A stretch of 64,000 bases of DNA, taken from positions 1 through 64,000 of the forward strand of contig NZ_AFWV01000003.1 of NCBI RefSeq assembly GCF_000223985.1, written 5' to 3'. This stretch comes from Thiocapsa marina 5811. GTDB lineage: Bacteria; Pseudomonadota; Gammaproteobacteria; Chromatiales; Chromatiaceae. Within the stretch, counting starts at the first letter, position 1, and each line of letters begins with the position of its first letter. Shown here piece after piece: positions 7,845 through 58,085 of this stretch. Both the position numbers and the translations under genes were made by a program. The notes under the pieces are model-generated. The model made no database searches, was not told the origin of the DNA, and was given only the letters and a program-made list of their open reading frames with translations.

Positions 7845-7930
7845 TGAACCGCGTCGACTGCGACGCCTGTTGATCGCCGCGGACGAAGCGCCCGTGCGAA
7901 ACCGATCCATATTCTGCCGGACGCGGTTCA
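7845..7930. repeat. AACCGCG element A (86 bp)
   Basis: Ends TGAACCGCGTC and GACGCGGTTCA form inverted termini. Oriented on the minus strand it reads TGAACCGCGTCCGGC, then about five bases, then a TATGG motif, as in the other copies. The last three bases (7928-7930) are the TGA stop codon of nosF. Confidence 0.8.
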
Positions 7931-8812
7931 CGCATACCGCACCTCGGCCAATTCCGGCCCTCTCGCCGCATCCAACCGAATGGAATCAAGCAGCGCCGCA
8001 TACCTCGACAAGAGCCCGAGGAAGCGCAGGCGATCCGCCCCGGCGACCCAGCCGTCCCATGTGATGCCCTGATCTGCACTGCGCAGACCCCAAGGGGTGA
8101 CCGCCCGCGCGAAGGCGTCGTCCGCACGCGTCAGGACCAGACGGCAGCGCAGACGGCTGGTGAGATCCACCAGGTCCGCGACACGATCGTCGAGGACCAC
8201 CAGACCTTGGTCCATCTCGATGACCCGGTTCACGAGTGCGGCGACCTCGTCGAGCCGGTGACTGGAGATGAGCATGGCGACCTGCTCCTGGCGTTCGGCC
8301 AGCAGCTCGAAGAAGATGTGGCGCGCGTCGGGATCCAGGTTGGCGGCGGGTTCGTCCATGACCAGCAGCTCGGTATCCCGACCCAGGGCGATGCTGATCA
8401 AGAGCTTCTGTTTTTGGCCGCCCGAGAGCTTCACGAAGGGCTGGTGCCGAAACGCCTTCGCATCCAACCCGAGCCGTGTCGCGACCGCTTCCATGCGGCG
8501 TGGATCCGCGCCGCAGACCCCGGAGGCAAACTGAATCAATTGCCCGACCGGCATCTTGAGCGGCGGCGGCAGCTGCGGCACGAAGCCGATCTTGCCGAGC
8601 ACCTCGCGCCGGTGCTCGCGCGGGTCCAGATCATCGACGCGGACCTTGCCCTGACACACATACTCCCCGAGCAGACAGCGGATGAGCGTGGTCTTGCCAG
8701 CCCCGTTGGAGCCGACCAGGGCGACCCGGTGTCCGCGCTCGATGACGAGGTCGATCCCCTTCAGAACGGTCTGGCGACGAAAGCGTTTGCTGACCTGCTC
8801 GAAACGGATCAT
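7928..8812 (-). CDS. nosF: NosF, ABC-type ATPase
   Basis: 294 residues. Walker A 'GSNGAGKTT', signature 'LSGGQKQK', Walker B 'LLVMDEP' and the switch His in 'ISSHRLDE' are all present. It powers NosY in copper/sulfur site assembly of N2O reductase. The start MIRFEQVSKRF overlaps the nosH stop by 4 bases (ATGA). The stop codon TGA is contributed by the end of repeat element A, which lies between nosF and nosL. Confidence 0.93.
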   Translation of the reverse strand: MIRFEQVSKRFRRQTVLKGIDLVIERGHRVALVGSNGAGKTTLIRCLLGEYVCQGKVRVDDLDPREHRREVLGKIGFVPQLPPPLKMPVGQLIQFASGVCGADPRRMEAVATRLGLDAKAFRHQPFVKLSGGQKQKLLISIALGRDTELLVMDEPAANLDPDARHIFFELLAERQEQVAMLISSHRLDEVAALVNRVIEMDQGLVVLDDRVADLVDLTSRLRCRLVLTRADDAFARAVTPWGLRSADQGITWDGWVAGADRLRFLGLLSRYAALLDSIRLDAARGPELAEVRYA

Positions 8813-9786
8813 AGGGCCTTCTCCAGTCCCTTGAAGGTGTAGCTCAGCGAGCCGGTCGGACAGATGTCGACGCAGAGACCGCAGCGGGTGCAATCGGCGC
8901 CGATGTCGGTGGTGAGTCCTTGCGCACGGCCGCGAATGGTGACGTCGAGCACATGCGGCACCATGCAGATCTTCCGACAGTCGCCCTCGTGGTGGCAGCT
9001 GCGCATGTTGTACTGCACGCGCAGCGGCGAGATGACACCGACGAGACCGTAGGTGATGCCGATCGGGCAGACATAGCGACACCAGGCCCGGCGCGAGAGC
9101 AGCACCTCGAAGGCCAGCAGGGCGAGGATCCAGAGCAGCGCCAGGCCGGGACCGTAGATGAGCGCGCGGCTGAGGATCCCGGTCGGGGAGATGGTCTCGA
9201 AGACGGTATAGCCGGTCAGCAGGGCAAGCAGGGCGAAGATGACGTAGAAGACCGCCCGCACGGTGCGATGGAACTGGATGTCGATCGCCCAGCCGCGCTT
9301 GGCGAGCCACAGGTGCAGCGATTCGGCCCATTCGGCGACCAGATGATAGGGACAGACCCAGGAGCAGAAGGTCCGCCCGCCGAGCAGGATCCAGAGCACC
9401 AGGACGGTCAGTGTACCGATCAGCAGGTTAACCACGATGTGCTTGTAGGCGAGCGTGACCTGCAGCGCCGAGTTCAGATCGGCCAGGTGGAAGCCGATGA
9501 CGCGCGAGGCGGTCAGCGCGCCCTCGACCAACTGCACGTCGAGCACGTAGGACAGGACGAACAGCAGATTCACCACGATCAAGGTGATCCAGCGGCGATT
9601 GCGCCATTTGTGGCGGTTCGCGCTGCGTGCGTGACCCGCTTCGACGGCGTGCAGCGCCTCGCGGGTCAGAGGCGTCTTGCGCTTCTCTTTATAGATCGCC
9701 TGGACCGGGATGGGGATCTGCTCGGGCGTCGGCTTGACCGGTTTGAGCCCGAGCAACTGGCGCAGCGATTCGACGAAATAGCTCAT
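8809..9786 (-). CDS. nosH: NosH, NapH-like quinol dehydrogenase, iron-sulfur membrane protein
   Basis: 325 residues. Four or more membrane helices carry two C-x3-C-P motifs at their ends ('CSWVCPYH', 'CRYVCPIG'). Two [4Fe-4S] motifs follow in the C-terminal part ('CHHEGDCRKICMVP' and 'CTRCGLCVDICP'). NapH-type proteins take electrons from quinol and, with NosG, pass them towards the periplasm. The start MSYFVESLRQ overlaps the nosG stop by 4 bases. In clade II nos clusters this NosG/NosH pair and c-type cytochromes stand in for NosR of clade I. Confidence 0.88.
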   Translation of the reverse strand: MSYFVESLRQLLGLKPVKPTPEQIPIPVQAIYKEKRKTPLTREALHAVEAGHARSANRHKWRNRRWITLIVVNLLFVLSYVLDVQLVEGALTASRVIGFHLADLNSALQVTLAYKHIVVNLLIGTLTVLVLWILLGGRTFCSWVCPYHLVAEWAESLHLWLAKRGWAIDIQFHRTVRAVFYVIFALLALLTGYTVFETISPTGILSRALIYGPGLALLWILALLAFEVLLSRRAWCRYVCPIGITYGLVGVISPLRVQYNMRSCHHEGDCRKICMVPHVLDVTIRGRAQGLTTDIGADCTRCGLCVDICPTGSLSYTFKGLEKAL

Positions 9787-10634
9787 TGGAAGTCGGCGCT
9801 CCGATGGATGTCCACCACGATGGCGGCGGGCTCGGCGGGACAGACCATCTCGCAGACGCCGCATCCGACACAGCCGTCTTCGACGACCGGTGTCGCGGTG
9901 CGTCCGTCCGGCATTGGTTGCATCCGGATGGCGTGCAAGGGTGGGCACTGATTGGGATCGCCCGAGGGCGGGGTGCCGGCCTCGCATTGGGCGATCCGGA
10001 TCTCGATCGGGCAGAGTCGGACACACAGATCGCACAGCGGCAGGTCGAACGGATGCTCGGCCAAGCGGATCGGATTCCAGCGGTCGACGGACTCGAAGCG
10101 CAGCAATGCGGGGTGATCCGTGCCGCGCGCAGCACCCTTGAAGGGCTGACCGCGCACGGCAAGACAGCGGCAGGGCCGGGCGAGCCGCGCAAATCCCATC
10201 CGCGTCTCGGCGGGGTAGTCGATGTCGTGCGTCAGTGCCCCGGTGGGACAGGCCAGCACGCATTGCAGCCCGTCGCAGGAGAAGTCGCAGGCCTGGTCGC
10301 GCGCCTCGATGTAGGGCACGCCGAGGCCGACGCCGTCGTTGATGTCGGCCAGCTTGATCGCTTCGACCGGACAGACTTGTACGCACTGGCCGCATTTGAT
10401 GCAGGCCGAGAGAAATTCCTGCTCGTCGAGCCGATCCTTGAGCGCGCCCGGTGGACGCAGACGCGCGTTGGCCTGTCCAATCAGCGGGATGAGTCCGACG
10501 AGCGAGGCCCCGACCATCCCGACGAGGAGGGCGGTGCTGCGCAGAAACTCGCGTCGTCCCTGCTCGCGCAGCTTCTTGGTCTTGCGCTTCGGTTTCGGCT
10601 TCGTCTTCGGTTGGGCGTTCGGTTTCTCTTTCAT
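9783..10634 (-). CDS. nosG: NosG, NapG-like ferredoxin-type protein, Tat-exported
   Basis: 283 residues. The N-terminus is very basic (K/R-rich), followed by the twin-arginine signal 'GRREFLRST' and a hydrophobic stretch. Four [4Fe-4S] cluster motifs follow, the first being 'CIKCGQCVQVCP' and the last 'CVGCGVCEMVCP'. It should accept electrons from NosH on the outer side of the membrane. I chose the ATG at 10634 over a TTG at 10652 because GAGGTGA lies 7 bases before it. Confidence 0.88.
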   Translation of the reverse strand: MKEKPNAQPKTKPKPKRKTKKLREQGRREFLRSTALLVGMVGASLVGLIPLIGQANARLRPPGALKDRLDEQEFLSACIKCGQCVQVCPVEAIKLADINDGVGLGVPYIEARDQACDFSCDGLQCVLACPTGALTHDIDYPAETRMGFARLARPCRCLAVRGQPFKGAARGTDHPALLRFESVDRWNPIRLAEHPFDLPLCDLCVRLCPIEIRIAQCEAGTPPSGDPNQCPPLHAIRMQPMPDGRTATPVVEDGCVGCGVCEMVCPAEPAAIVVDIHRSADFQ

Positions 10635-10648
10635 GTTCGCTTCACCTC

Positions 10649-29692: not shown

Positions 29693-30724
29693 GTGAAGAG
29701 ACGGGAAACAAGGGCACCGAAGCCGCTACGCCTGTGCGGATTCCTGTCGTTCGTGTTCGTTCTGCTGTGGCCGTCGGCACCCTTCGCCGAGCGGCTGGAC
29801 GCCATTCTGATCGCCGAGCAACCCTGCCCTGCGACGGTCTCGATCAAGCGACCGGACAACCCCGGCTCGATCCGGCTTGTCCCCGGCCAAGGGTATAGGG
29901 TCGTCGGGACCAATCGGGCGGATCCGAGCCACTATCGACTCAGGTTCGAGGACGCGAACCCGAAGGAGCGCTGGGTCGAGATCCGATGCGGTCATCTTGA
30001 GGACGCCCCCGCGACCGCAGCGGCTGCGGACGCGCGGCAGGGGCCGCCGACGTCCGCGCGTGCGGGCTCGATGGATGGCCAGCTCGTGCTGGCGGCCAGT
30101 TGGCAGCCGGCCTTCTGCGAGTTGCGCACGACGCGTCCCGAGTGCCGCGACCAGACCCCCGAGCGTCCGGATGCACGGCGCTTCTCTCTCCACGGTCTCT
30201 GGCCTCAACCCATCGGCAACAGCTATTGCGGTGTCGGTGAGCGGGAGCGGACACTTTCCAGCTCGGGCCAGTGGCGCCGCCTGCCCGCACTGGATCTGGA
30301 TGCGACGACCCGCGCGCGCCTGAACGCCTTGATGCCCGGAACCCTGTCGGATCTGCAGCGGCATGAGTGGTTCAAGCACGGAACCTGTTACGGCACGGAT
30401 GCGGACACCTATTTCGACTATTCCCTGTTGCTGCTCGAGCAGCTCAATGCCTCCGGCGTGCGTGCTTTGTTCGAGGAGAATATCGGCAAGCGCCTGAGCG
30501 CGACCCGGGTGCGTGCGGCCTTCGACGACGCCTTCGGCAAGGGGGCGGGCGAGCGGGTTCGTCTGAGCTGTTCCGAGGGTCTGATCGAGGAGCTGAGAAT
30601 CGGTCTGGCGGGCGTCGTCGACGACACCGCCGAGCTGGGCGAGTTGATCCTTGCCGCGCCCAAGCGGAGCCCCGACTGCCGCGGTGGATGGGTCGATCGA
30701 GCGGGCGTCGATACAGCGCGTTGA
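29693..30724 (+). CDS. Ribonuclease T2 family protein, secreted
   Basis: 343 residues with a signal peptide ('LCGFLSFVFVLLWPSAPFA'). The C-terminal two thirds is an RNase T2 domain with both active-site motifs, 'SLHGLWPQ' and 'HEWFKHGTCYG'. These hold the catalytic His residues and Glu. Between signal and enzyme lie about 100 residues of unknown function ('CPATVSIKRPDNPGSIRLVP'). It should degrade RNA in the periplasm or outside. The start is GTG 29693 directly after GGAGGGAGGA. It follows corC by 21 bases, so it may be co-transcribed with the rRNA-maturation genes. Confidence 0.85.
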   Translation: MKRRETRAPKPLRLCGFLSFVFVLLWPSAPFAERLDAILIAEQPCPATVSIKRPDNPGSIRLVPGQGYRVVGTNRADPSHYRLRFEDANPKERWVEIRCGHLEDAPATAAAADARQGPPTSARAGSMDGQLVLAASWQPAFCELRTTRPECRDQTPERPDARRFSLHGLWPQPIGNSYCGVGERERTLSSSGQWRRLPALDLDATTRARLNALMPGTLSDLQRHEWFKHGTCYGTDADTYFDYSLLLLEQLNASGVRALFEENIGKRLSATRVRAAFDDAFGKGAGERVRLSCSEGLIEELRIGLAGVVDDTAELGELILAAPKRSPDCRGGWVDRAGVDTAR

Positions 30725-30755
30725 CTCGGAAGAGCAGATGAATCCGTGCGGCGGT

Positions 30756-31604
30756 CTAAATCCGCTCGATTGTCCATGAGGGTACCGATCGCCCCGTCTC
30801 CTCAATGGCGAGCGTATCGGCGAGTCGCGGCAGCAGGTCCCCGAGCCGCTCTTCCAGGCGCCAAGGCGGGTTGAGAATCAGCATCCCGGAACCGTGCATC
30901 CCGAAGTCGTCGACCTGCCGCCGCACCCTCAACTCGCACAGCAGTCCGTCCGAGACGGATCGCCGGATGCTCCCGATCAGGTCAGCGGAACGATCGCGCT
31001 GCAGCCCCAGACGCGGGAACCAGAGTGCGTAGACCCCGGTCGGCCAGCGGGCATGCGCTGCGAGGAGTGCCTCTGCAACGCGCCTGTACTCGGAGACCTG
31101 CTCGTATGGCGGGTCGATCAAGACCAGCCCGCGTGCGGGCTTCGGCGGCAAGAGTGCGGTCAATCCTTCGAGCCCGTCGCGACGGTGGATGCCGATCCGG
31201 GGGTCGCCGCCGAGATGGCGACGCAGCGTCTGCGACTCGGTCGGATGAAGCTCCATCAGGATCAGCCGATCCTGCGCGCGCAGCAGGTGCGCCGCGAGAG
31301 CGGGTGAGCCCGGATAGACCGAAAAGCCTCCGCTCGGGTTCAGCGAGGAGATGGCCCCGAGATAGGCCGACAGCTCCGGAAAGACATCACGCTGCTCCCA
31401 GAGTCGTGCGATCCCGAGCCGATATTCCGCGGTCTTGAGCGCCTGCTCGGCGCCGAGATCGTACCGACCGGCCCCGGCGTGCGATTCGACGTAGACCAGG
31501 GGTTTAGGCTTGGCCAGGAGTGACTCCAGCACGAGGCCGAGAACCGCGTGCTTGAAGACGTCTGCATGATTACCGGCGTGGAAGCCGTGAAGGTAGCTTA
31601 ACAG
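30756..31604 (-). CDS. rlmJ: RlmJ, 23S rRNA adenine-2030 N6-methyltransferase
   Basis: 282 residues. The N-terminus 'SYLHGFHAGNHADVFKH' and the catalytic 'LIDPPYE' are typical of RlmJ, which methylates A2030 of 23S rRNA. Homologues start MLSY-x-HGFHAGNHAD. Here the first codon of that block is CTG, with AGGAG exactly 7 bases before it, and no ATG, GTG or TTG lies at a sensible place. CTG is therefore the likely start. The next in-frame ATG upstream (31730) would add 42 unrelated residues. Confidence 0.88.
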   Translation of the reverse strand: MLSYLHGFHAGNHADVFKHAVLGLVLESLLAKPKPLVYVESHAGAGRYDLGAEQALKTAEYRLGIARLWEQRDVFPELSAYLGAISSLNPSGGFSVYPGSPALAAHLLRAQDRLILMELHPTESQTLRRHLGGDPRIGIHRRDGLEGLTALLPPKPARGLVLIDPPYEQVSEYRRVAEALLAAHARWPTGVYALWFPRLGLQRDRSADLIGSIRRSVSDGLLCELRVRRQVDDFGMHGSGMLILNPPWRLEERLGDLLPRLADTLAIEETGRSVPSWTIERI

Positions 31605-35110: not shown

Positions 35111-35189
35111 GTAGGGTGGACGAGCGAGAGCGAAGTTCACCAAGCACCGCGCCGACGCTGGTGGACTGCGCTGCGCTTGTCCACCCTAC
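35111..35189. repeat. REP pair, head to head (GTAG type)
   Basis: The left unit at 35111-35141 is GTAGGGTGGACGAGC...GTTCACC. The right unit at 35160-35189 is inverted and ends GTCCACCCTAC. It is the same family as 4811-4889 and lies between convergent 3' ends (kinase and rnfE). Confidence 0.85.
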
Positions 35190-40532: not shown

Positions 40533-40797
40533 GCTCTCTTTGGCTTCGGGGCGTGCGATGGGCGCTTGCTGCGCTCTCGGGTCTCGGGTCTCGGAACGAG
40601 CCGCGAAATGCTGCAAGCGCGAAATCGCCGAAGGATACGCCTCGGGGGCGGTTTGCTACAACACCGGGACTGAAGGGTTATCGGGGAATCGCCTCCGGCC
40701 TCCGGCCTTCAGCCTTTAGCGCAACTGGTGCCTTCTATCGTCGGCACAACCGGGCTGCCCTCGGTCCACAGGCTGCGCTATCCGGTTCATTTTACTC

Positions 40798-42879: not shown

Positions 42880-43124
42880 GGATGGGCTCAAGTGGATCGG
42901 CTTTCGGGTCTCGAACGATGCCCCAGTATCTCACGGGCCGTCCCGGTGCGGACAGCGCGGTCCCCGTCTGGTCTTTCGAGTCCGGACTTGATTTAAGGCA
43001 TCTCCACACCAAAACTCTGCGGGAACTTTTCCGACCCCCGGTTGCAGCGTTCCGGTCCATCGAAAAGCATCGATCTCGTGCGATCCGGCTGCGCCGGGCG
43101 CATCCATTTATCTTGGAGTACCTC

Positions 43125-44216
43125 ATGTCCGAACCCACGAAAGAAGCCGTCGAAGCCGCCATCAAGGGCTACAAGGAACCACACCTCGGGCGCGATCTGG
43201 TGGCGGCGCATTCGATCAAGGGCATCGAGATCGAGGGCGGTCAGGTGCGCATCAAGGTCGTCTTGGGCTTCCCGGCCAAGACCATCTGCGCGGGCATCGC
43301 CAAGACGCTCGAGGAGGCCGTTCTCGCCGTCGAGGGTGTCGAGATGGTACAGGTCGACGTGACCTGGGAGATCAAGTCGCACTCGGTTCAGAAATCGCTC
43401 AAGCCGATCGACAACATCAAGAACATTATCGCCGTGGCCTCGGGCAAGGGCGGCGTCGGCAAGTCGACGACCGCCGTCAACCTGGCGCTCGCCTTGTCGG
43501 CCGAGGGCGCGCGCGTCGGCATCCTGGACGCCGATATCTATGGCCCGTCCCAGCCGCGTATGCTCGGGATCTCGGGCAAACCCGAGTCCAAGGACGGCAA
43601 GAGTCTCGAGCCGATGAGCAGCTACGACCTCCAGGCGATGTCCATCGGCTTTCTGATCGACGAAGAAACGCCCATGATCTGGCGCGGCCCGATGGTCACA
43701 CAGGCCCTGGAGCAGTTGCTGAACGACACCAACTGGTCGGATCTGGATTATCTGGTCATCGACCTTCCGCCGGGTACGGGCGATACGCAATTGACCCTCG
43801 CGCAGAAGGTGCCGGTGTCGGGTGCGGTCATCGTCACTACCCCCCAGGACATCGCCCTGCTCGATGCGCGCAAGGGTTTGAAGATGTTCCAAAAGGTCGA
43901 GGTGCCGGTGCTGGGTGTCGTCGAGAACATGAGCACTCACATCTGCTCGGCCTGCGGCCACGAAGAGCACATCTTCGGCGAAGGCGGCGGACAGAAGATG
44001 TCCGAGCAGTACGGGATCGATCTCCTCGGCTCGCTCCCCCTGAACGGCCATATCCGCGAGGAGACCGACAACGGAAAGCCGACCGTGGTGGCCCAACCGG
44101 ATTCGCGTGTCGCGGAGATCTACCGCGAGATCGCCCGCAAGACCGCGGCGAAGCTCTCTCTGCAAGCCAAGGATTATGCTTCGAAATTCCCGCGGATCGT
44201 GATCCAAAACAACTAA
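43125..44216 (+). CDS. apbC: Mrp/ApbC, iron-sulfur cluster carrier ATPase
   Basis: 363 residues. An N-terminal MIP18-like domain is followed by a deviant Walker A 'GKGGVGKST', 'VIDLPPGTGD' and the cluster-binding C-x-x-C in 'ICSACGHEE'. It carries [4Fe-4S] clusters to client proteins; the neighbourhood has many (Rnf, MiaB, NrdG, NosG/H). The ATG at 43125 has GGAG upstream. It is divergent from metG. Confidence 0.95.
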   Translation: MSEPTKEAVEAAIKGYKEPHLGRDLVAAHSIKGIEIEGGQVRIKVVLGFPAKTICAGIAKTLEEAVLAVEGVEMVQVDVTWEIKSHSVQKSLKPIDNIKNIIAVASGKGGVGKSTTAVNLALALSAEGARVGILDADIYGPSQPRMLGISGKPESKDGKSLEPMSSYDLQAMSIGFLIDEETPMIWRGPMVTQALEQLLNDTNWSDLDYLVIDLPPGTGDTQLTLAQKVPVSGAVIVTTPQDIALLDARKGLKMFQKVEVPVLGVVENMSTHICSACGHEEHIFGEGGGQKMSEQYGIDLLGSLPLNGHIREETDNGKPTVVAQPDSRVAEIYREIARKTAAKLSLQAKDYASKFPRIVIQNN

Positions 44217-44463
44217 ATTGCGCCTTTTGGAGTCTGCGACGGCCGAGTTAGTTTGGGCCTCGCAGGCTCCCATGAGTGTCGTGCCGGGCCCAGTTTAGGG
44301 CTTTTCGCGCCTTCGATTCGGGCCAGAGCCTCTGGAGCGGTCGTGGGATTGCGATCACCTGTTCGGGAACGTCCGGGTGGCCGTTGTCGATCACTCGTCG
44401 GCTTGTTGTGCTCGGCTCCGCGGTGTAGCCTTTTCGGCTTTGCGCGCACACCGAGATTTCCTG

Positions 44464-45037: not shown

Positions 45038-45121
45038 TGAACCGCGTCCAGACCGACATACTGACTTTCGAGCGAGCGCGACCTTTGGTGCATCCACGGC
45101 CCTTGGCAGAGACGCGGTTTA
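45038..45121. repeat. AACCGCG element B1 (84 bp)
   Basis: Ends TGAACCGCGTC and GACGCGGTTTA. It reads TGAACCGCGTCC, then a CATA motif about 20 bases in. First of a tandem pair between the convergent dcd and glycosyltransferase genes. Confidence 0.8.
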
Positions 45122-45144
45122 AAACCATTTATTCTTCAAGACCC

Positions 45145-45229
45145 TAAACCGCGCCGGTTCCGGCGGTCGTCGAGTCTGCCCGGGCCGATCCCGTCTGAGC
45201 ACATTCCATACTGCGCCGGGCGCGGTTTA
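45145..45229. repeat. AACCGCG element B2 (85 bp)
   Basis: Ends TAAACCGCGCC and GGCGCGGTTTA. In the opposite orientation it reads TAAACCGCGCCCGGC, then TATGG, as element A does. Positions 45227-45229 are the TAA stop of the glycosyltransferase gene. It is 23 bases from B1. Confidence 0.8.
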
Positions 45230-46453
45230 GACGACGTCGTCGGTTTTCGGGGTCGGGTCGAGCGCGGGATCCGTCGCCTGATTGCGCACCCGCCGTGCGA
45301 TAACCTGTGCGTAGAACTGCAACATCCGCTCCGCGAGGACGGGTGCCGACCAGGATCTTGCGTGCTCGACCGCCTCGACGGCGAGTCGCGCCCGCAGTGC
45401 CGGATCCGTGAGGACTCGGACCGCCTTGTCCGCGAAGTCGGTCTCGTCGTCCTCCGCGATGAGCGATCCGCCGCCGCCCGCCAGCACCTCCTTGGTTCCC
45501 ATCACGGCCGTCGAGACTACCGGCACCCCGAGCGCCATTGCCTCCAGGAGCACGAGCCCTTGCGTCTCGGTCTTCGAGGCGAAGACGAAGGCAGCGCCCG
45601 CGCAGTAGCAGTCCTCGAGGGAGCCGTCACGCTCCAGATAGCCCGTGAACAAGGTGTTGTCGGCCAGCCCGAGATGGTTCGCCAGGGTCTGAAGCCGACG
45701 GTGTGCCGGGCCCTCCCCGGCGATGACCAGGAGCACATCCGGGACCTGCGTCTTCACGCGCACGAGCATCCGCAGGATGAAGTCGATGTTCTTCTCGAAG
45801 GCGAGACGGCTGACGTGCACCAGAACGGGACGCCCGGGCGGGATGCCCCGACTGTTGCGGAAACGAGCACCGTCGCCCTGGCTGAACTGGACGAGCTCGA
45901 TCCCGGTCGGGATGACCGTCGCGGGCGTCTTCACACCGTAGCTCTTCAAGACCTCGAGCATGGCGTGCGAGGGCACCGCCAGCGCATCGACAGCGTTGCA
46001 CTGGGCCGTCGAGAAGTCGCGTGCCAGCCGCTGCATCCAGGCGGTCGGGACGAAAGGCACATAGTGATGGAGATACTGCTCGAAGAAGGTGTGGTAGCTC
46101 TCGACCACCGGGACACCCAATCGCTTGGCGATCCCGAGGCCGAGATAGTGCGCGAAGAAAGGGGTCTGGATATGCACCAGATCGTACCCGCGGCTTGCCA
46201 GCATGCCATCGAGGCGACGGATCTCGCGGGGGCGCAGCATGCGGTCCTCGGGATCGATGACCAGATAGCGCGACGGGATGCGTAGAACCTCGAAGGGCTC
46301 GGGCGCGGACTCGCCGCCGGCCGCCGAGTAATCCGGCGCGATCAGGGTAAGCTCATGTCCTTTTGCGACGAACTCCCGCGCAAACGTCTGGATCGACGTC
46401 GATACGCCCGTGATGCGAGGGAAGTAGACGTCGGAGATCATCAGGATGCGCAT
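45227..46453 (-). CDS. Glycosyltransferase, GT4 family
   Basis: 408 residues. The GT-B fold N-terminus 'RILMISDVYFPRITGVSTSI' and the sugar-nucleotide-binding C-terminal motif 'ASKTETQGLVLLEAMALGVP' (E-x7-E type) mark a retaining GT4 enzyme. It resembles glycosyltransferases that act on diacylglycerol or other lipid carriers ('HTFFEQYLHHYVPFVPTAWM'), but the acceptor cannot be fixed. The start MRILMISDV at 46453 fits the fold; longer frames add non-matching residues. The stop TAA comes from repeat B2. Confidence 0.85.
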   Translation of the reverse strand: MRILMISDVYFPRITGVSTSIQTFAREFVAKGHELTLIAPDYSAAGGESAPEPFEVLRIPSRYLVIDPEDRMLRPREIRRLDGMLASRGYDLVHIQTPFFAHYLGLGIAKRLGVPVVESYHTFFEQYLHHYVPFVPTAWMQRLARDFSTAQCNAVDALAVPSHAMLEVLKSYGVKTPATVIPTGIELVQFSQGDGARFRNSRGIPPGRPVLVHVSRLAFEKNIDFILRMLVRVKTQVPDVLLVIAGEGPAHRRLQTLANHLGLADNTLFTGYLERDGSLEDCYCAGAAFVFASKTETQGLVLLEAMALGVPVVSTAVMGTKEVLAGGGGSLIAEDDETDFADKAVRVLTDPALRARLAVEAVEHARSWSAPVLAERMLQFYAQVIARRVRNQATDPALDPTPKTDDVV

Positions 46454-48189: not shown

Positions 48190-49581
48190 ATGAATCCATC
48201 GACTCTATTGATCGTTTTGCTTGGGTTGATGGCGTTTGCCTATCATTTCGGGCGCAAACGCGCCATCTCCGCCGCCGGCGGTGTCGCACGCCTCAACACA
48301 CTGCATTCGCTCCCCGCCTACTACGGGCTCTACGCGGCACTCTGGGCCGGAATCCCGGCATTGTTGCTGATGGGGCTCTGGGTCGGCTTCCAGAACGAGA
48401 TCCTCATCACGATCGTCAAATCGGAGCTGCCGCCGGAGATCCTCGACGGCATGTCTTCCGGTCAGATCGGCCTGATCGTGAACGACATCAAGAACCTCGC
48501 CTCCGGCACCATCGTCTCCGGTGTCGTGACGCCCGAGATGCAGGCCGCCGCGGATCGCTACACTCAACTCGATCAGATCGCACGCTGGGCCATGTGGCTG
48601 GCTGTCTTGGCGGTTGCGGTCGCAGGTATGGGCTACGCTTGGGCCAAGACCAAGCCGACCATGCGGGCGCGCAACCGGGTCGAGACCATTTTTATGGTCA
48701 TCCTGGTCATCTTCTCCTCGATCGCCATCCTGACGACGCTCGGGATCATCCTCTCGGTCCTGTTCGAGTCGCTGCTGTTCTTCAAATCCGTTTCGCCGCT
48801 CGAATTCTTCTTCGGCACGCTTTGGAGTCCGCAGACCGCGCTGCGGGCCGATCAGGTCGGTGCCTCGGGCGCCTTCGGTGCCGTGCCGCTCTTCACCGGG
48901 ACCCTGATGGTCTCGGCGATCGCCATGCTGGTGGCGGTGCCGATCGGGCTCATGTCGGCCATCTATCTGTCGGAGTATGCGCCGCGCCGGGTCCGCTCCT
49001 ATGCCAAGCCGACGCTCGAGGTGCTTGCGGGCGTGCCGACGGTGGTCTACGGATTCTTTGCCGCCCTGACCGTTGCGCCCGTCATTCGGGAGCTCGGAAT
49101 CTCTCTGGGCCTGGACGTTGCCTCCGAGAGCGCCTTGGCCGCGGGTTTGGTGATGGGCATCATGATCATCCCCTTCGTGTCGTCCTTGTCGGAGGACGTG
49201 ATCAATGCCGTGCCGCAGGCGATGCGCGACGGCTCCTACGCCCTCGGGGCAACCCAGTCGGAGACGATCCGGCGCGTGATCATCCCGGCGGCTCTGCCCG
49301 GGATCGTCGGCGGGATTCTGCTCGCCGTCTCGAGGGCGATCGGCGAGACCATGATCGTCGTGATGGCCGCCGGTCTCGCGGCCAATCTGACGGCCAACCC
49401 GCTCGACAGCGTCACGACCGTCACGGTCCAGATCGTCACCCTGCTCACGGGGGACCAGGAATTCGACAGCCCCAAGACCATGGCGGCCTTCGCCCTGGGT
49501 CTGACCCTGTTTGTCGTCACCCTGACGCTCAACGTGATCGCCCTTCAGATCGTGCGCAAGTATCGGGAGCAGTATGAATAA
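48190..49581 (+). CDS. pstC: PstC, phosphate transport permease
   Basis: 463 residues, longer than E. coli PstC (319). Extra helices and a periplasmic stretch precede the usual six-helix permease. The permease EAA loop is at 'DGSYALGATQSETIRRVIIP'. It pairs with PstA in the membrane. The start MNPSTLLIVL at 48190 fits the first helix. It overlaps pstA by 8 bases. Confidence 0.94.
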   Translation: MNPSTLLIVLLGLMAFAYHFGRKRAISAAGGVARLNTLHSLPAYYGLYAALWAGIPALLLMGLWVGFQNEILITIVKSELPPEILDGMSSGQIGLIVNDIKNLASGTIVSGVVTPEMQAAADRYTQLDQIARWAMWLAVLAVAVAGMGYAWAKTKPTMRARNRVETIFMVILVIFSSIAILTTLGIILSVLFESLLFFKSVSPLEFFFGTLWSPQTALRADQVGASGAFGAVPLFTGTLMVSAIAMLVAVPIGLMSAIYLSEYAPRRVRSYAKPTLEVLAGVPTVVYGFFAALTVAPVIRELGISLGLDVASESALAAGLVMGIMIIPFVSSLSEDVINAVPQAMRDGSYALGATQSETIRRVIIPAALPGIVGGILLAVSRAIGETMIVVMAAGLAANLTANPLDSVTTVTVQIVTLLTGDQEFDSPKTMAAFALGLTLFVVTLTLNVIALQIVRKYREQYE

Positions 49582-50881
49582 CGCGCGTGCGGCCGGTGCC
49601 CCGCCTCAACGCACCATCGACATCGTCAACGCCAGTCTGAAGCGGCGCTATGCCAAGGAGCGGCGTTTCCGCCTGCTCGGCCTCGGCGCCGTGGTCTTGG
49701 GCTTGTTGTTCGTCGCGCTGCTGTTCGCGGATATCGTCGGCAAAGGCTACACGGCCTTTCAGCAGACCTATATCCAGTTGCCGGTGACCTTCGATGCCTC
49801 CGTCATCGATCCCGAAGGTGCGCTCGACCCCGAGACCCTCAGGCGTGCCAACTATGCCGCGCTGATCCGAAAGGCCCAGCGCGAGGTCTTCCCCGAGGTC
49901 ACGGCGCGCCGGGATACGCGGGCACTCGGGTCCATGATCAGCGTCGGCGCTTCCTCGCATCTTCGCGACATGGTTCTGGCCGACCCCGATCTGATCGGGA
50001 CCACGAAAGAGGTTTGGCTGCTTGCCGACGACGACATCGACATGTTGGTCAAAGGGCACATCGATCGGACGCTTCCGGAGAGCGAACGCCGTGTGAAGGA
50101 CCAAACGCTCGGGTGGGTGGAACGGCTCGAGTCCGAGGGGCGCATCGAGAAGCGCTTCAACACCATCTTCTTCACGCACGGAACCTCGCGCGAGCCCGAG
50201 CTGGCCGGGATTGCGGGTGCGCTCATGGGGTCCTTCTACACCTTGGCGTTGACCCTGCTCTTCTCCTTTCCGATCGGGGTGGGCGCGGCACTCTATCTCG
50301 AGGAGTTCGCGCCCAAGAATCGCTGGACCGATCTGATCGAGGTCAACATCAACAACCTGGCGGCCGTTCCCTCGATCGTGTTCGGGCTCTTGGGGCTCGC
50401 GGTCTTTATCGGGATCTTCGGCGTGCCGCGATCGACACCCTTGATCGCGGCCTTGGTCCTGAGTTTGATGACCTTGCCGACCATCATCATCGCCAGCCGC
50501 GCGGCGCTGAAGTCGGTCCCGCCCTCCATCCGCGAGGCGGCGCTTGGCGTGGGCGCCTCGCCCCTGCAGACGCAGCTGCATCATGTGCTGCCGCTGGCGA
50601 TGCCCGGCATGTTGACAGGCACCATCATCGGGATGGCGCAGGCACTCGGCGAGACCGCGCCCTTGCTGATGATCGGTATGATCGCCTTTATCGTCGATAT
50701 TCCGAGCGGCTTCACCTCGCCCTCCACGGTGCTGCCGGTCCAGATCTTCCTCTGGGCCGACAGCCCCGAGCGCGCCTTCGTCGAGCGCACCTCCGCGGCC
50801 ATCATGGTTCTGCTCGCCTTCCTGATCCTGATGAACCTGACCGCCGTCCTGCTGCGCCGTCGCTTCGAGCGGCGCTGGTGA
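49574..50881 (+). CDS. pstA: PstA, phosphate transport permease
   Basis: 435 residues. After the first helix there is a periplasmic insertion of about 130 residues ('[20 protein letters not shown]' onward) that E. coli PstA (296) lacks. The standard permease part follows, with the EAA loop '[20 protein letters not shown]'. Enlarged PstC/PstA pairs are common in related gammaproteobacteria. Confidence 0.94.
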
Positions 50882-50945: not shown

Positions 50946-51809
50946 ATGAGCACCACGGTTGATGAGATGAGTCGACGCACCGGCGCGATGAGCTCTGCGG
51001 AGTTGTCCGGCGAGCGCGAGTCGCGCGCGACGGTCGGAGATGTCACGGTTGCGAACCCGCGCATGGTGTGTCGCGACGTCGATGTCTGGTACGGCGCCAA
51101 GCAAGCCATCAAGGGCGTCAGTCTGGATATCGGCAAGAACGAGGTCGTTTCCATGATCGGCCCCTCCGGCTGCGGGAAATCGACCTTTCTGCGCTGTCTG
51201 AACCGGATGAACGACACCATCGACGGGTGTCGCGTCACCGGGTCCATCCAGCTCGACGGTCAGGACATCTACGACAAGGGACTCGATCCGGTGCCGTTGC
51301 GCGCCCAGGTCGGGATGGTATTCCAGAAGCCGAATCCCTTCCCCAAGTCGATCTACGAGAATGTTGCTTACGGTGCGCGCATCCACGGGCTCACCAACAA
51401 CAAGGCCGAGCTCGACGAGCTGGTCTCGGCCAGTCTCCAAAAGGCCGGCCTCTGGAACGAGGTCAAGGATCGCCTGGACCAACCCGGGACCGGGCTCTCC
51501 GGCGGTCAACAGCAGCGGCTGTGCATCGCGCGCACCATCGCCGTCTCCCCCGAGGTGATCCTCATGGACGAGCCCTGCTCGGCGCTTGATCCGATCGCCA
51601 CCGCCATCATCGAGGAGCTGATCGACGAGCTGCGGGCCAACTACAGCATCGCCATCGTGACCCACTCGATGCAGCAGGCCGCGCGCGTCTCGCAGCGCAC
51701 CGCCTATTTTCATCTCGGTGATCTGATCGAGGTCGGCGAGACCAATCAGATCTTCACCAACCCCAAGCACCGGTTGACCGAGGACTATATTACCGGGCGG
51801 TTCGGCTGA
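50946..51809 (+). CDS. pstB: PstB, phosphate transport ATPase
   Basis: 287 residues. Walker A 'GPSGCGKST', signature 'LSGGQQQR', Walker B 'VILMDEP' and switch 'THSMQQ' are all present. '[18 protein letters not shown]' is a PstB mark. The ATG at 50946 follows GAGGT at 7 bases. The stop overlaps the phoU start by one base (TGATG). Confidence 0.95.
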
Positions 51810-52668: not shown

Positions 52669-52956
52669 ATGGCGAACGAGGGCTACCACGAGCCAGTCGA
52701 AGAACTGTCCGACGAGACCCGGGACATGCACCGGGCCATCATCTCGCTGATGGAAGAGCTCGAAGCGGTCGACTGGTACAACCAGCGGGTCGATGCCTGC
52801 AAGGACGGAGATCTGAAGGCGATCCTCGCGCATAATCGCGACGAGGAAAAGGAGCATGCAGCCATGGTGCTGGAATGGATCCGTCGCAAGGATCCGACCT
52901 TCGACAAGGAGCTGAAGGACTATCTCTTTACCGAAAAGCAGATCGCGCATCACTAA
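52669..52956 (+). CDS. Encapsulated-ferritin-like protein (EncFtn), orphan
   Basis: 95 residues. The helix pair 'IISLMEELEAVDWYNQRVDA' and 'LAHNRDEEKEHAAMVLEWIR' closely follows the encapsulin-cargo ferritin of Rhodospirillum rubrum. E30, E60 and H63 fit the ferroxidase iron ligands, and E29, E32 and W36 the entry site. This family dimerises into a ten-membered ring that oxidises Fe(II) and depends on an encapsulin shell for storage. Here no shell gene is near, and the usual C-terminal docking peptide is missing (the protein ends 'TEKQIAHH'). The ATG at 52669 follows CGGAGAAG. The TAA stop is part of repeat C1. Confidence 0.88.
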   Translation: MANEGYHEPVEELSDETRDMHRAIISLMEELEAVDWYNQRVDACKDGDLKAILAHNRDEEKEHAAMVLEWIRRKDPTFDKELKDYLFTEKQIAHH

Positions 52957-53037
52957 ACCGCGTCCGTGGGTTCATGTTCGGGGCGGCGTGATCCGCACCG
53001 TCGACCCGGCTACACACCTTGGCGTTGACGCGGTTCA
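52954..53037. repeat. AACCGCG element C1 (84 bp)
   Basis: Ends TAAACCGCGTC and TGACGCGGTTCA. It reads TAAACCGCGTCCGTGG, then CATG. The first three bases are the stop codon of the EncFtn gene. Confidence 0.8.
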
Positions 53038-53082: not shown

Positions 53083-53167
53083 TGAATCGTGTCGGCTCAA
53101 ACCTTTCGGGATTGACGTGAAGCGCCACAGTTCCTGGAGCCGTCCATGTCGTGCCGGGCGCGGTTCA
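53083..53167. repeat. AACCGCG element C2 (85 bp)
   Basis: The right end GGCGCGGTTCA is exact. The left end TGAATCGTGTC is diverged by two bases. On the minus strand it reads TGAACCGCGCCCGGC, then CATGG. It is 45 bases from C1 and ends 2 bases before the ATG of the next gene. Confidence 0.75.
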
Positions 53168-53620: not shown

Positions 53621-54880
53621 ATGCCCATCCTGATCCTGGCCTGGAAGAGCCTCCTGAATCGCCGCGGCACGGCGCTGCTCACGGTCCTGTCGATCGGTCT
53701 GAGCGTTGCGCTGTTGGTCGGTGTCGAGCGCCTGCGCACCGAGACGCGTGCGAGCTTCGCCAATACCATCTCGGGTACCGACCTGATCGTCGGCGCGCGG
53801 ACCGGACCGGTCCAGCTGCTGCTCTACGCGGTCTTCCGAATCGGTCAGGCCACCAACAACATCTCGTGGGACTCCTATCTGGAGATCGCGGCCCACCCGC
53901 GCGTCGCCTGGGCCATTCCGATCTCTCTGGGTGACTCGCACCGCGGCTACCCGGTGCTCGGGACCACCTCGGCCTATTTCGAGCACTATCGCTACGGCCG
54001 CGGTGATGGGCTCGTCCTGGCCGAGGGTGCGCCCTTCTTCGACCTCTATGACGCCGTACTCGGGGCCGATGTGGCGAGGGCGCTGGGCTATGGGTTGGGC
54101 GATGCCGTCGTGATTGCGCACGGGGCCTCGGATGTCGCCTTCGCGCGTCATGACGAGCATCCATTCCGCGTTGTCGGGGTCCTCGCGCCGACCGGCACCC
54201 CGGTCGATCGCACGGTGCATGTGAGCCTGGAGGGTATCGAGGCGATCCATGTCGGCTGGGATGGCGGGGCGCCCTTGCCCGGCCGGGTCGTCGATGCCGA
54301 TGCGGCGCGAGCCATGGATCTTGCCCCCAAAGCCATCACGGCGGCCTTGCTGGGCCTGACCTCGCGGATCTCGACCTTCCAGGTGCAACGTTTCGTCAAC
54401 GACTACCGAGCGGAACCGCTGACGGCCATCCTGCCCGGCGTGGCACTCGCGGAGCTGTGGGGCCTGATTGCAGTCGGGGAGCGGGCCTTGCTCCTGGTCT
54501 CGGGATTCGTGGTCGTCGTGGGCCTCTTCGGGCTCTTGACCGCGCTGCTGACGAGTCTCGGCGAGCGCCGGCGCGAGATGTCGATCCTGCGCTCGGTCGG
54601 TGCCCGTCCGAGCCACGTCTTCGCGCTGATCCTGGGCGAGGCGCTCGTGCTGACCCTGCTCGGTATCCTCGTCGGCCTCGGGGTTCTCTACGCGGCGCTG
54701 TTTGTGGCCCAGCCGCTCATTCTGTCCGAGATGGGTATCTTCGTTGCTGTCGGAACCCTCTCGGCTCGTGAGATGATGTTGCTGGCGCTGGTGCTCGCCG
54801 CGGGTGTCCTGGTCGGTCTGATCCCGAGTTATCGCGCCTATCGGCTGTCTTTGGCTGACGGGCTGTCGATTCGCGTGTGA
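53621..54880 (+). CDS. MacB/FtsX-type ABC transporter permease
   Basis: 419 residues. An N-terminal helix ('TALLTVLSIGLSVALLVGVE') is followed by a large periplasmic domain with 'IVGARTGPVQLLLYAVFRIG'. Three C-terminal helices of the FtsX type come last, with 'LGERRREMSILRSVGA' between. Such permeases move lipoproteins or act mechanically and need an ATPase partner; none is adjacent. A permease of this kind beside a DUF3299 lipoprotein is a recurring pair, usually with the ATPase gene. The ATG at 53621 follows GGAGAG. Repeat D starts 5 bases after the stop. Confidence 0.82.
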   Translation: MPILILAWKSLLNRRGTALLTVLSIGLSVALLVGVERLRTETRASFANTISGTDLIVGARTGPVQLLLYAVFRIGQATNNISWDSYLEIAAHPRVAWAIPISLGDSHRGYPVLGTTSAYFEHYRYGRGDGLVLAEGAPFFDLYDAVLGADVARALGYGLGDAVVIAHGASDVAFARHDEHPFRVVGVLAPTGTPVDRTVHVSLEGIEAIHVGWDGGAPLPGRVVDADAARAMDLAPKAITAALLGLTSRISTFQVQRFVNDYRAEPLTAILPGVALAELWGLIAVGERALLLVSGFVVVVGLFGLLTALLTSLGERRREMSILRSVGARPSHVFALILGEALVLTLLGILVGLGVLYAALFVAQPLILSEMGIFVAVGTLSAREMMLLALVLAAGVLVGLIPSYRAYRLSLADGLSIRV

Positions 54881-54885
54881 GTCAT

Positions 54886-54976
54886 TAAACCGCGCCCGAT
54901 GCGGCATGCGTCCCTTGTTGGATGGGATTGGATCGGCCGCGCCAGCTCCGACAGCTGTCGGAGCTGGCGCGGCTGG
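54886..54976. repeat. AACCGCG element D (about 91 bp, right end diverged)
   Basis: It starts TAAACCGCGCCCGATG, then GGCATGCG, like the other copies. The right end GGCGCGGCTGG matches only GGCGCGG-T. Its right part is a 38-base palindrome, listed separately. The first base is 6 bases after the permease stop. Confidence 0.65.
54936..54973. repeat. Perfect 38-base palindrome
   Basis: GCCGCGCCAGCTCCGACAG is followed at once by its exact reverse complement, ending at 54973, with no loop. A second inverted pair, GTTGTCGT (54993-55000) and ACGACAAC (55023-55030), follows. It may terminate the permease transcript, although no T run follows. Confidence 0.8.
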
Positions 54977-55107: not shown

Positions 55108-55689
55108 ATGAGACTATTTGTGCGGCTGTTCCCGGTGATTCTCGCCCTGGGGCTTGTGGGTTGCGGCGAAGAATCGTCCGAACCCGAGTCAGCGATTTCA
55201 GGCGCGATGCAAGTCGAGGAGATCGATTGGGACCGCTTGATCCCGGTCGAGTGGCAGCCCGAGACCCTGCTCGAGGGCTTCGACCTCGACGCGTTCGATG
55301 CGATGGACGACGACGATCCCCGTGCGACCGCGCTGATGGACAAGCTCATGGCGCTCTGGGCCGATGCACCGGTCGTGGAGGAGCTCGACGGGCTCAGGGT
55401 CCGTCTACCCGGCTTCGTCGTGCCGTTGGAGCTGGATGCGCAAAAGATGTCCGAGTTCCTCCTGGTGCCATACTACGGAGCTTGCATTCATGTCCCGCCG
55501 CCGCCCGCAAACCAGACCGTTCATGTGGTTGCGCCCGAGGGGCGCGAGTATGTCGGCGAGCTGTTCGATACCGTTTGGGTGACCGGGACCCTTCGGGTGA
55601 TCCGCTCCAGCAGCGAGCTGGCCGACGCCGGCTACCGGATCGACCTGACCGAGATCGAGCCCTACGACGGCGAGTTGGAGCCCCTTTAA
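55108..55689 (+). CDS. DUF3299 lipoprotein
   Basis: 193 residues. The lipobox 'LGLVGC' gives a lipid-anchored protein. The DUF3299 domain includes 'RLPGFVVPLELDAQKMSEFL' and 'VPYYGACIHVPPPPANQTVH', with one conserved Cys and His that look like a metal or thiol site. Family function is unknown; it often accompanies a MacB-like ABC transporter, as here (permease 230 bases upstream). Its TAA stop is the first three bases of repeat E1. Confidence 0.88.
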   Translation: MRLFVRLFPVILALGLVGCGEESSEPESAISGAMQVEEIDWDRLIPVEWQPETLLEGFDLDAFDAMDDDDPRATALMDKLMALWADAPVVEELDGLRVRLPGFVVPLELDAQKMSEFLLVPYYGACIHVPPPPANQTVHVVAPEGREYVGELFDTVWVTGTLRVIRSSSELADAGYRIDLTEIEPYDGELEPL

Positions 55690-55771
55690 ACCGCGCCTCC
55701 GCACGACAGGCACCGTCGTGCCTTGAATCGGTCTCGCAGGAATCAATGACCCTTTCAGCAGGCGCGGTTTA
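55687..55771. repeat. AACCGCG element E1 (85 bp)
   Basis: Ends TAAACCGCGCC and GGCGCGGTTTA. It contains an internal perfect inverted repeat GCACGAC...GTCGTGC. The first three bases are the stop of the DUF3299 gene. Confidence 0.82.
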
Positions 55772-55790
55772 AGTCTTTCAATTTTTAATC

Positions 55791-55874
55791 TAAACCGCGT
55801 CGACTCCAACCTTGTAGGTGTCCTCGAAGTTGAGGGTGCGCTCGAACGTCATCATGCACCGCGGACGCGGTTCA
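55791..55874. repeat. AACCGCG element E2 (84 bp)
   Basis: Ends TAAACCGCGTC and GACGCGGTTCA, 19 bases after E1. On the minus strand it reads TGAACCGCGTCCGC, then GCATG. With E1 it fills most of the gap between the DUF3299 and PTPS genes. Confidence 0.82.
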
Positions 55875-55995
55875 GCTTGGATTCGGCCGAGTGACCCCAC
55901 ATCCCCCAAGTGTCGGAGGCGAGTGGCGAGCGATCGCGGACTTCACCGACAGATGCTCCGAGCCCCGGGGCACTCGATCCGCAGCGGAGACGACC

Positions 55996-57188: not shown

Positions 57189-57946
57189 CCGCGACGACGT
57201 CGCGCACCGTCTGCATCAGCGGCGGGACATCCGGGATCGGCGCGGGGCTCGTCGGCGCGTTCATCGAGGCCGGCGATCGCGTCGTGACCTTCGGGCGGGA
57301 TCCGGAGAAGGTCGCCGCACTCGCGCAGCGACGGGGTCAGGCCGTTGCCTCCGGTGCCTTGCGTCTCCTGGTGGGCGACGTGACCCATGCGGATTTCCGC
57401 GAGCAGCTCGTCGCCGAGATCCGGGACAGGGACGGGCGACTGGATGTCCTGGTGAACAATGCCGGGGTGATCTTAAGCCAAGGCGATATCGAGGAAACGG
57501 TCGAGGCATGGAGGACGACCCTCGAGGTCAACCTGATTGCGCCCTTTGCCCTGACCCAAGGTTTTCTCGGCTTGCTCGAGCAAAGCGCCGCCCCGGTCGT
57601 CATCAACATGTCGTCGGCCTGTGCGCAGCACCCCTTCGAGACCTGTACATCGACGAGCTATTCCGCCAGCAAAGCGGGTCTGGAGATGTTGACCCAGCGA
57701 CTGGCGATGGCGCTGGGGGGGCGCGGCATTCGGGTGAACGCGGTCGCTCCGGGCGTGGTGGAATCCCCGATGTGGGGCGGTGCGAGCGATCTGATCGACT
57801 CGACCGTCAAACGCCGTCACCGTTTACGCCAAGAGGCGATCGAGCCATGCGACGTGGCGCGTGCCGTCCTCTTTCTCGCCTCCGAGGACGCGCGACGGAT
57901 TACGGGCGCCTGCCTCAATGTCGATGCGGGTTATGCGCTTGGCTAA
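57185..57946 (+). CDS. Short-chain dehydrogenase/reductase 2
   Basis: 253 residues, classical SDR: 'SGGTSGIGAGLVGAFIEAGD', 'VNNAGV', a catalytic Ser ('INMSSACA') and Y-S-A-S-K. The C-terminus 'ITGACLNVDAGYALG' is standard. The substrate is unknown; being third in the PTPS-SDR-SDR operon with ATGA overlaps suggests a step on the same pathway. Repeat F starts 58 bases after the stop. Confidence 0.85.
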   Translation: MTATTSRTVCISGGTSGIGAGLVGAFIEAGDRVVTFGRDPEKVAALAQRRGQAVASGALRLLVGDVTHADFREQLVAEIRDRDGRLDVLVNNAGVILSQGDIEETVEAWRTTLEVNLIAPFALTQGFLGLLEQSAAPVVINMSSACAQHPFETCTSTSYSASKAGLEMLTQRLAMALGGRGIRVNAVAPGVVESPMWGGASDLIDSTVKRRHRLRQEAIEPCDVARAVLFLASEDARRITGACLNVDAGYALG

Positions 57947-58004
57947 TCCGAAGAGAGCCGTTATGAAGCCGAGAGGCGAAGCGCGGAAAAATCTTCAATC
58001 AACC

Positions 58005-58085
58005 TGAACCGCGTCCCGCCGAGTCGATTGTTCGAGGTGACCTCGCAGTCACCTCGACACGATTCATGTCACTGCTGGCGGTTCA
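58005..58085. repeat. AACCGCG element F (81 bp)
   Basis: Starts TGAACCGCGTCCCGCC and ends CTGGCGGTTCA. It contains an internal inverted repeat CGAGGTGAC...GTCACCTCG. It lies between the convergent SDR2 and SCP2 genes and ends 3 bases before the SCP2 stop codon. Confidence 0.75.

Follow-up and report, generated by a model that had tools for sequence, protein, structure and literature searches.

The stretch analysed here, called the window, comprises the first 64,000 nucleotides of contig NZ_AFWV01000003.1 of Thiocapsa marina 5811. It contains short interspersed elements of about 85 bp whose two ends are inverted copies of TRAACCGCGYC. We read these elements as miniature inverted-repeat transposable elements (MITEs) of an IS630-family (Tc1/mariner-type) transposon, mobilised in trans and leaving a hairpin at the 3' ends of genes; as the best explanation of the whole, gene-end hairpin included, we give this reading a probability of about 0.9. 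The elements make up a large, directional, genome-wide family of purple sulfur bacteria (Thiocapsa) that is apparently undescribed.

An earlier note, made from the letters of the window alone, had listed nine copies, and all nine are present where it placed them. The genus was searched with the end pattern TRAACCGCGYC-N45..75-GRCGCGGTTYA, with the reversed pattern as a control. The window's genome (G000; 5.59 Mb, 62 contigs) holds 313 strict matches and none to the control, which places the family beyond chance genome-wide. Ten congeners (G001-G010) hold 486, 293, 351, 218, 1, 0, 185, 145, 0, and 590 strict-pattern copies, respectively; seven are element-rich (145-590 copies each), G005 has a single copy, and G006 and G009 have none. 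Across the order, the pattern is present in 29 of 210 genomes, G000 counted in. In a class-wide draw of 369 genomes, searched with a slightly stricter pattern, G000 is the sole match; only three others in that draw belong to the same family. First-order Markov resampling, one per stretch (464 kb in total), gives 0 matches at up to 2 end mismatches, and the same 464 kb of real sequence holds 67 matches with at least 7 of 11 end pairs. A figure of about 850 copies per genome is an extrapolation from a contiguous 264-kb block of contig C60, in which 40 copies were counted under a loose definition; copy density was taken only from this block, and stretches L033-L035 had been picked for high copy number. 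The direction ascribed to the elements is borne out: one end (CATG-type) is more conserved, and this terminal-repeat end is called as the outer end.

The family is structured. Among 256 copies from stretches of 11 genomes, three amplified families hold 156 (A 89, C 39, B 28), with family A mainly in 85-bp and 86-bp forms. Nine smaller families have 4-8 copies each, mostly one per genome at orthologous places; these are old, vertically inherited insertions. The remainder are smaller groups and singletons. In a set of 248 copies selected irrespective of pairing, from a search that admitted 79-90 bp, 232 are 83-86 bp long. The window holds mostly old copies and therefore gives an impression of free interiors. 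The statement that interiors share little sequence holds for these copies, but the 156 members of A, B, and C have conserved interiors within their families. The related proposal, that constant length with a free interior suggests selection on structure, stands in part: length is constant and the terminal stem covaries, but the interiors of the amplified subfamilies are not free.

Elements also occur together, in 77 two-element clusters and one of three. Both CATG/terminal-repeat ends point outward in 73 of the 77 pairs; in the remaining 4, one end could not be called. Gaps of 23 bp are the most frequent within pairs (33 of 77). Two matches, L021 and L030, are left out of the copy listing used for spacings in the window. 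Pairs consist of A+C (31), A+B (19), old+old (20), or unclassified members (7), and none of the 77 is A+A, B+B, or B+C. The 33 spacers of 23 bp between A and B or C have a consensus near AGATATTAAAAAATATATAATTT and an A+T content of 83%. Because the ends face outward, A joins only C or B, and the spacer is shared, we regard the pairs as composite elements with distinct halves. Composites measure about 190-194 bp, and both they and the single units are too short for a transposase gene. Singles comprise A 36, B 9, C 7, old 20, and other 27. Orthologous loci from several genomes are included, and are thus non-independent, in the pair counts as well as in the target, stop-codon, and site-occupancy counts given below. 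The sole three-element cluster lies in the G001 block, near 40582 of a concatenated 200 kb.

The elements are mobile and duplicate TA upon insertion. Orthologous stretches of the ten congeners were aligned to find empty and filled alleles, and in this systematic comparison the empty allele keeps exactly one TA at 6 independent sites: G000#19/G010#6; G000#21/G001#0/G004#3/G010#1; G001#4; G001#5 (a single); G003#4; and G010#9. Near window position 52571, other genomes have just a stop codon, TAG or TAA; at precisely this point G003 carries a composite of 193 bp, and G010 carries one from which part has been deleted. The target reads Y-TA-R at 160 of 177 clusters (orthologues included), and, of 354 outer ends, 95% have a purine as the next base outside the TA. 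A composite of G001 (L259:1304-1494) is nested at CTAG inside the end of a decayed IS630 remnant, with TA on both sides. Remnants such as TAAACCGCGGTTTA represent loss by internal deletion. The comparison took in only sites with at most 25 unaligned flank bases, 44 of the 84 loci having an empty comparison, and several of the 44 are uninformative on duplication, with 12-55 other bases or element remnants between the flanks. Clusters near stretch ends were dropped (within 30 bases for the target count, 250 for the empty-allele comparison, and 400 for the stop-codon count).

Insertion with TA duplication, and the dispersal of copies at gene ends, both argue against integron attC-type or other site-specific recombination sites. 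An imperfect inverted structure, constant length, and conserved ends would suit such sites, but the element ends do not read as what we take to be the attC core-site consensus, and we consider this identity, for which no search for an integrase was made, extremely improbable.

The elements have ends that are IS630-like in sequence. IS630 transposons of G006 and related genera have ends of approximately 34 bp that match the CATG end. Family B has an outer end that is identical at 28 of 34 positions to the right end of L235 and at 30 of 34 to that of L236; beyond the 11-bp stem, the agreement with L236 is 20 of 23. Families A, C, and the 86-mers reach 22-27 of 34 over eight transposon ends; for inner ends, whatever the family, agreement with any of the eight is 5-9 of 23 positions. 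Of the 11 genus genomes, 9 contain PF13358 (DDE_3) transposases. Among 30 loci of the approximately 47 DDE_3 loci listed, matching ends on both sides (at most 1 mismatch) were found only at L212 of G006. This transposon is 1277 bp long with ends TAAACCGAGCCTAGCCCGAGATACGTAATTTTTCC and TAAACCCCGCCCAGAGCGGGATACGTAATTTTCATG, and its protein (317-aa frame) matches NF033545 IS630 with E 3e-45. Close relatives of the protein (68-88% identity over most of the query) occur, among the matches listed, in G126, G054, G165 (three full copies), G043, and G078, and an intact 405-aa frame in G165 is 71% identical to it. Transposons with TAAACC... at both ends span 1274-1277 bp in G006, G126, G054, G165, and G078, and decayed copies in G131 and G162 have shorter spans of 944 bp and 1031 bp; only one matching end was recognised in five further loci, including L239 of G043. 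Elements and transposase also co-occur in the order: elements are present in 9 of 16 genomes with a close transposase match versus 20 of 194 without one (Fisher p 3e-5), the 16 being drawn from the matches listed (at least 54% identity, short fragments included) and perhaps incomplete.

Several observations weigh against an IS630 origin and TA duplication. Six other close empty sites (-1 to 2 bases between flanks) keep CA (two), TG, AA, T, or a 1-base overlap, and two further ones overlap by 3 and 10 bases. Family A ends match only moderately, at 13-16 of 23 positions beyond position 11 (inner ends 5-8). The inner 11-bp half-copy is absent from five full-length IS630 copies, where the best candidates have 3-5 mismatches. 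A close transposase was not found in element-rich Thiocapsa: among the matches listed, the best identity to the L212 protein is 28% in G000 and 40% in G001, the latter a decayed fragment, and G003 and G007 have no match. In addition, the IS630 loci examined from G000 are without matching ends. Present mobilisation is unexplained for these last two reasons.

The preferred mechanism runs as follows. The full element is a composite of approximately 190-194 bp, with an A end and a B or C end of 84-86 bp each, pointing outward around an AT-rich box of about 23 bp. The outer ends carry transposon-like terminal repeats (TRAACCGCGYCCRGNGCGRYATGCG...), and each end unit has an inner inverted copy of its first 11 bp, so that it can fold on itself; it also occurs as a single 84-86-bp element. 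An IS630 transposase, acting in trans, would cut at the TRAACCGCG ends and join them to TA within Y-TA-R, duplicating the TA. In this GC-rich genome, many Y-TA-R sites outside coding sequence are stop codons; the element would restore the stop as TAA, with TGA ends arising by later mutation, and the outcome would be a hairpin at the gene 3' end. Singles would use the inner 11-bp end, as one clean single site (G001#5) suggests. A, B, and C amplified recently enough to differ in presence between species, and older copies have been inherited vertically in the genus, keeping their length and much of their stem pairing. The partner transposase would since have been lost from the element-rich Thiocapsa genomes.

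A different transposase was considered as well. In a REP/REPIN system, a RAYT (Y1_Tnp) transposase moves short palindromic ends. The elements resemble REPINs in having hundreds of copies, each with inverted ends on either side of a variable middle, and REP, BIME, and REPIN sequences are also palindromic, occur in high copy number close to the 3' ends of genes, and frequently form inverted pairs (PMC3733652). Y1_Tnp genes occur in 11 of 11 genus genomes, but the element-free G006 and G009 are among them. The RAYT linkage proposed as a check did not emerge: across the 30 of 100 Y1_Tnp matches inspected, no complete element lies within about 480 bp, and in 8 loci, five of them probably one orthologous place, elements lie approximately 0.5-1.4 kb off. 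Single end-like 11-mers (1 mismatch) are nearer at L047, L056, and L064. Described REPs carry GTAG or CGTC tags and palindromes of 20-40 bp (PMC3733652), whereas the elements carry no such tag at the conserved end, duplicate TA, and have IS630-like ends of about 34 bp. The REP class was rejected on the conserved end TRAACCGCGYC, the paired ends 83-86 bp apart, and the missing tag; the separation from the GTAG-type REPs of the window, drawn in the earlier note, is upheld by end sequence and TA duplication. A RAYT-driven system is, in our judgement, highly improbable. G000 itself has eight Y1_Tnp (RAYT/IS200-like) matches, two of them approximately 1.8 kb apart on contig C39, with an element approximately 2 kb from the nearer.

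Elements accumulate in the first 15 nt of the gene end. Genes were called by a simple codon-usage caller, and any gene names were assigned by eye. The first 464 kb, with element interiors unmasked, contains 70 genes that lead into an outer element end within 400 bp. Of these, 30 terminate precisely on the element's TRA; the next commonest offset is 6 nt (5 genes), 3 genes stop inside the element, and 2 more read through. Over all stretches, the gene stop falls at the element TRA in 52 of 77 pairs and 45 of 98 singles, and within the contiguous C60 block 17 of 29 loci have the element's own TAA or TGA as the gene stop. In the window, none of the seven loci is more than 6 nt from a stop codon, and five coincide with one; outgroups have the ancestral stop at the same codon for the copies at 52954 and 55687. 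Relative to all intergenic gaps (225 co-directional, 64 convergent, 52 divergent), element loci number 37, 18, and 3 (element interiors masked).

Occupancy of candidate Y-TA-R sites qualifies this picture. It amounts to 97 of 293 (33%) at stops, 31 of 60 (52%) at 1-15 nt downstream, 13 of 83 at 16-50 nt, and 27 of 184 at 51-150 nt. The stop itself is thus occupied less often than the positions just past it, and stop-codon targeting as such was rejected on these figures. Stop codons dominate because most Y-TA-R sites in the first 15 nt of the gene end are stops.

These occupancies fit a view that shares the transposon origin and denies any host role: the elements would be selfish MITEs, with gene-end location and apparent stem conservation arising secondarily from the choice of target, the purging of harmful insertions, and the transposition of copies able to pair. 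RUP, SPRITE, and IS elements are likewise in excess between convergent genes and are read as tolerated parasites (PMC3049150). We rate purely selfish elements as an even bet.

Stem pairing was counted on the 248 copies picked without a pairing criterion; the copy filter of an earlier count had partly demanded pairing. Pairing at stem positions 2, 4, 5, 6, and 10 lies above all 2000 shuffles (n=248); in the earlier count, there is no pairing beyond position 11. The shuffles keep relatedness in place, and nine small orthologue-like sets were therefore examined separately. Their 99 stem columns comprise 67 invariant, 8 with two Watson-Crick pairs, 5 with wobble, and 19 with unpaired states (mostly in one genome); when two sets with a second copy from the same genome are left out, the corresponding figures are 51, 6, 3, and 17 of 77. 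The check for compensatory changes is divided. Five positions beyond all 2000 shuffles, and 8 of 32 variable columns holding two Watson-Crick pairs, point to covariation in the terminal stem. Tempering this, positions 1, 3, 7, 8, 9, and 11 are without a comparable signal (n=248), 19 of the 32 variable columns hold unpaired states, and 3 of the 8 compensatory columns are also unpaired in places, one of them in 5 of 8 copies.

Conservation between species is graded in a similar way. For old or unclassified orthologues, located by their flanks, mean identity is 0.87 for stems against 0.76 for interiors and about 0.89 for flanks (55 comparisons, 12 elements); the stem figure is lowered by three outgroup comparisons lacking the element and by several misalignments, and the G000 copy was chosen by its stem, which introduces a bias. 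Orthologues of A, B, and C show 0.86 in stems and 0.81 in interiors (19 comparisons). Both comparisons are limited to orthologues with an intervening length within 25 bases of the G000 length. The slower change of old stems and the compensatory changes in some orthologue columns speak against elements that are selfish only, and the broken pairs in many stem columns and the slight advantage of A, B, and C stems over interiors speak for them.

Folding was predicted for whole elements and for interiors. Family means of the whole-element fold z range from -1.9 to -4.5. Interior-only values are near 0, except for the 86-mers (-2.3) and old copies (-0.7). Consensus folding with RNAalifold on A, B, C, and the 86-mers returned no interior structure common to the families; the terminal stem is the feature common to A, B, and C, and the 86-mers favor an internal hairpin. 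A structured noncoding or cis-regulatory RNA family, spread by recombination rather than as a transposon, would account for the covarying stem, the constant length, and the retention of old copies in up to 8 species at orthologous gene ends. It is hard to reconcile with clean empty alleles, TA duplication, and a matching transposon, and, outside the 86-mers and about a quarter of the old copies, shuffled sequences fold as well as the interiors do. As a replacement for the transposon origin, we consider this very improbable; as a description of the old copies, an RNA-element reading can hold alongside that origin.

Stem covariation suggests that retained copies may act as RNA structures at 3' ends, where they would insulate translation termination or protect or end transcripts. 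A stronger version is that the transposons now form a portable module for gene ends: they would bring a stop codon and a self-folding hairpin on their ends, insertion at a stop codon would exchange the native termination context for a standard one, and old copies with compensatory changes would now serve as termination or mRNA 3'-end structures at many genes of the genus. We put this forward tentatively and hold it to be less probable than its negation.

Among described elements, the nearest kind met is RUP of Streptococcus pneumoniae, a 107-bp element with IS630-Spn1-like ends, a TA target, about 110 copies, and an excess between convergent genes (PMC3049150, PMC2229807). Both are short MITEs with IS630-type terminal repeats and a TA target, and mobilisation by IS630-Spn1 has been proposed for RUP. 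RUP is one AT-rich unit with high copy-to-copy conservation, whereas the Chromatiaceae elements are 84-86-bp units of several families, single or as A+B or A+C. RUP proper is set apart by length (83-86-bp units and pairs of about 190-194 bp versus 107 bp) and by description, rather than by sequence comparison. The Correia/NEMIS elements of Neisseria are also MITEs with TA at their termini and terminal repeats, but these repeats are 24 bp, the elements are approximately 107 and 155 bp long with promoters and an IHF site (PMC2229807), and they lie mainly upstream of genes (PMC10969869). Their transcripts are cleaved by RNase III at the terminal repeats (PMC10969869), which offers a model for an RNA role.

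At the level of position, the elements recall ribosome termination structures, which lie at or just past the stop codon and have a role in re-initiation (PMC7518266), and REPs within 15 nt of the stop, cited as stalling ribosomes (PMC12306157). These are likewise stable mRNA structures at or just past the stop, and the elements agree with them in position and in predicted fold; in those papers, such structures are not described as MITEs bringing their own stop codon. Other sulfur bacteria also harbor abundant repeats. The TAACTGA repeats of marine Beggiatoaceae are intergenic, but they are short direct repeats in sets rather than elements with inverted ends (PMC4679880), and MITEs of a Thiomargarita genome have been likened in print to Correia elements, with no parental IS (PMC4853749).

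We found no published description of the Thiocapsa family in the literature searched, in which neither ISfinder nor most subscription papers were included. The 11-base ends, searched as literal sequence, turned up in 10 papers with titles on unrelated subjects, and Rfam at gathering scores has 0 matches in the window. The view that no described family has these ends accords with this. Regarding a match to a named repeat family, which the earlier note took as grounds for refutation, the elements are matched in kind, as IS630-derived MITEs, but not by name.

The modular build, in which A joins B or C and the units have inner half-copies of the terminal repeat, varies the IS630-type MITE architecture in a way not met in the literature searched. 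It bears on how large MITE populations persist where no close partner transposase is found, and the extrapolated copy number per genome would be a large MITE population for a bacterium. Furthermore, where related species differ in having or lacking an element at a given stop codon, the two alleles make a natural pair in which the effect of a hairpin on termination, read-through, re-initiation, and transcript ends could be measured.

The window holds two copies beyond the nine listed earlier: a degenerate one at 7737-7823 and one at 44214-44297. The former (plus strand, 87 bp) is the partner of the 86-bp element at 7845-7930 (minus strand), and the pair is found at this place in G008 too. The outer TGA of 7845-7930 (minus strand, 7928-7930) is the stop codon of gene 7928-8812(-). 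The latter is an 84-bp old element with orthologues in 6 congeners, from whose ATG-bearing end its plus strand is deduced; its TAA at 44214-44216 is the stop codon of gene 42918-44216. Next lies a C/A composite, made up of an 84-bp family-C element at 45038-45121 (plus strand, outer terminal-repeat end at 45038), a 23-bp AT-rich spacer at 45122-45144 (no strand), and an 85-bp family-A element at 45145-45229 (minus strand), whose outer TAA (minus strand, 45227-45229) terminates gene 45227-46453(-).

The old elements include two further pairs. An 84-bp element at 52954-53037 (plus strand), whose TAA at 52954-52956 is the stop codon of gene 52669-52956, has an 85-bp partner at 53083-53167 (minus strand) at 45-bp spacing. 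An 85-bp element at 55687-55771 (plus strand), whose TAA at 55687-55689 ends gene 55120-55689, has an 84-bp partner at 55791-55874 (minus strand) at 19-bp spacing. The count of three loci with two copies is true for the nine copies; it becomes four once the degenerate 7737-7823 is included. Inverted conserved ends, ascribed to all nine, are intact or nearly so in eight. The exception is the degenerate A-type (86-mer-like) element at 54886-54976 (plus strand), which starts 5 nt past the stop codon of gene 53621-54880; its left end is intact, and its right end has decayed to GGCTGG in place of GGTTTA. This site is filled in G010, with an intact orthologue, and empty in the other congeners compared. 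Finally, an old element at 58005-58085 (minus strand) ends 3 nt from the stop codon of gene 58089-58508(-). It is only 81 bp long because of a 2-bp deletion in the stem, most of its 7 orthologues being 83 bp, and in the G002 orthologue the element TGA is the gene stop itself.

Other insertions and repeats were seen in and around the window. A single element at the place of window position ~50890, between genes 49574-50881 and 50946-51809, is present in G010 and G001 only of the ten congeners; by eye, the two genes are parts of a pst-like phosphate-transport operon. A palindromic stretch at about 35112-35185, TAGGGTGGACGAGCGAGAGCGAAG...GTCCACCCTAC, looks like another interspersed repeat, as similar sequence occurs beside a G000 element at about 82 kb of C60 and in G004 and G008. 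At about 40719-40752 of the window, and in related places of G001, G002, and G008, there is a short intergenic inverted repeat of the GCACAAC/GTTGTGC type, and G004 and G007 carry a composite element at this place. In G004, the orthologue of window ~30720-30768 (L068) has an insertion of a few hundred bp with CGCTTCTCGCCTCGCTGAGCACGCA repeated inside, a possible mobile or repeat element.

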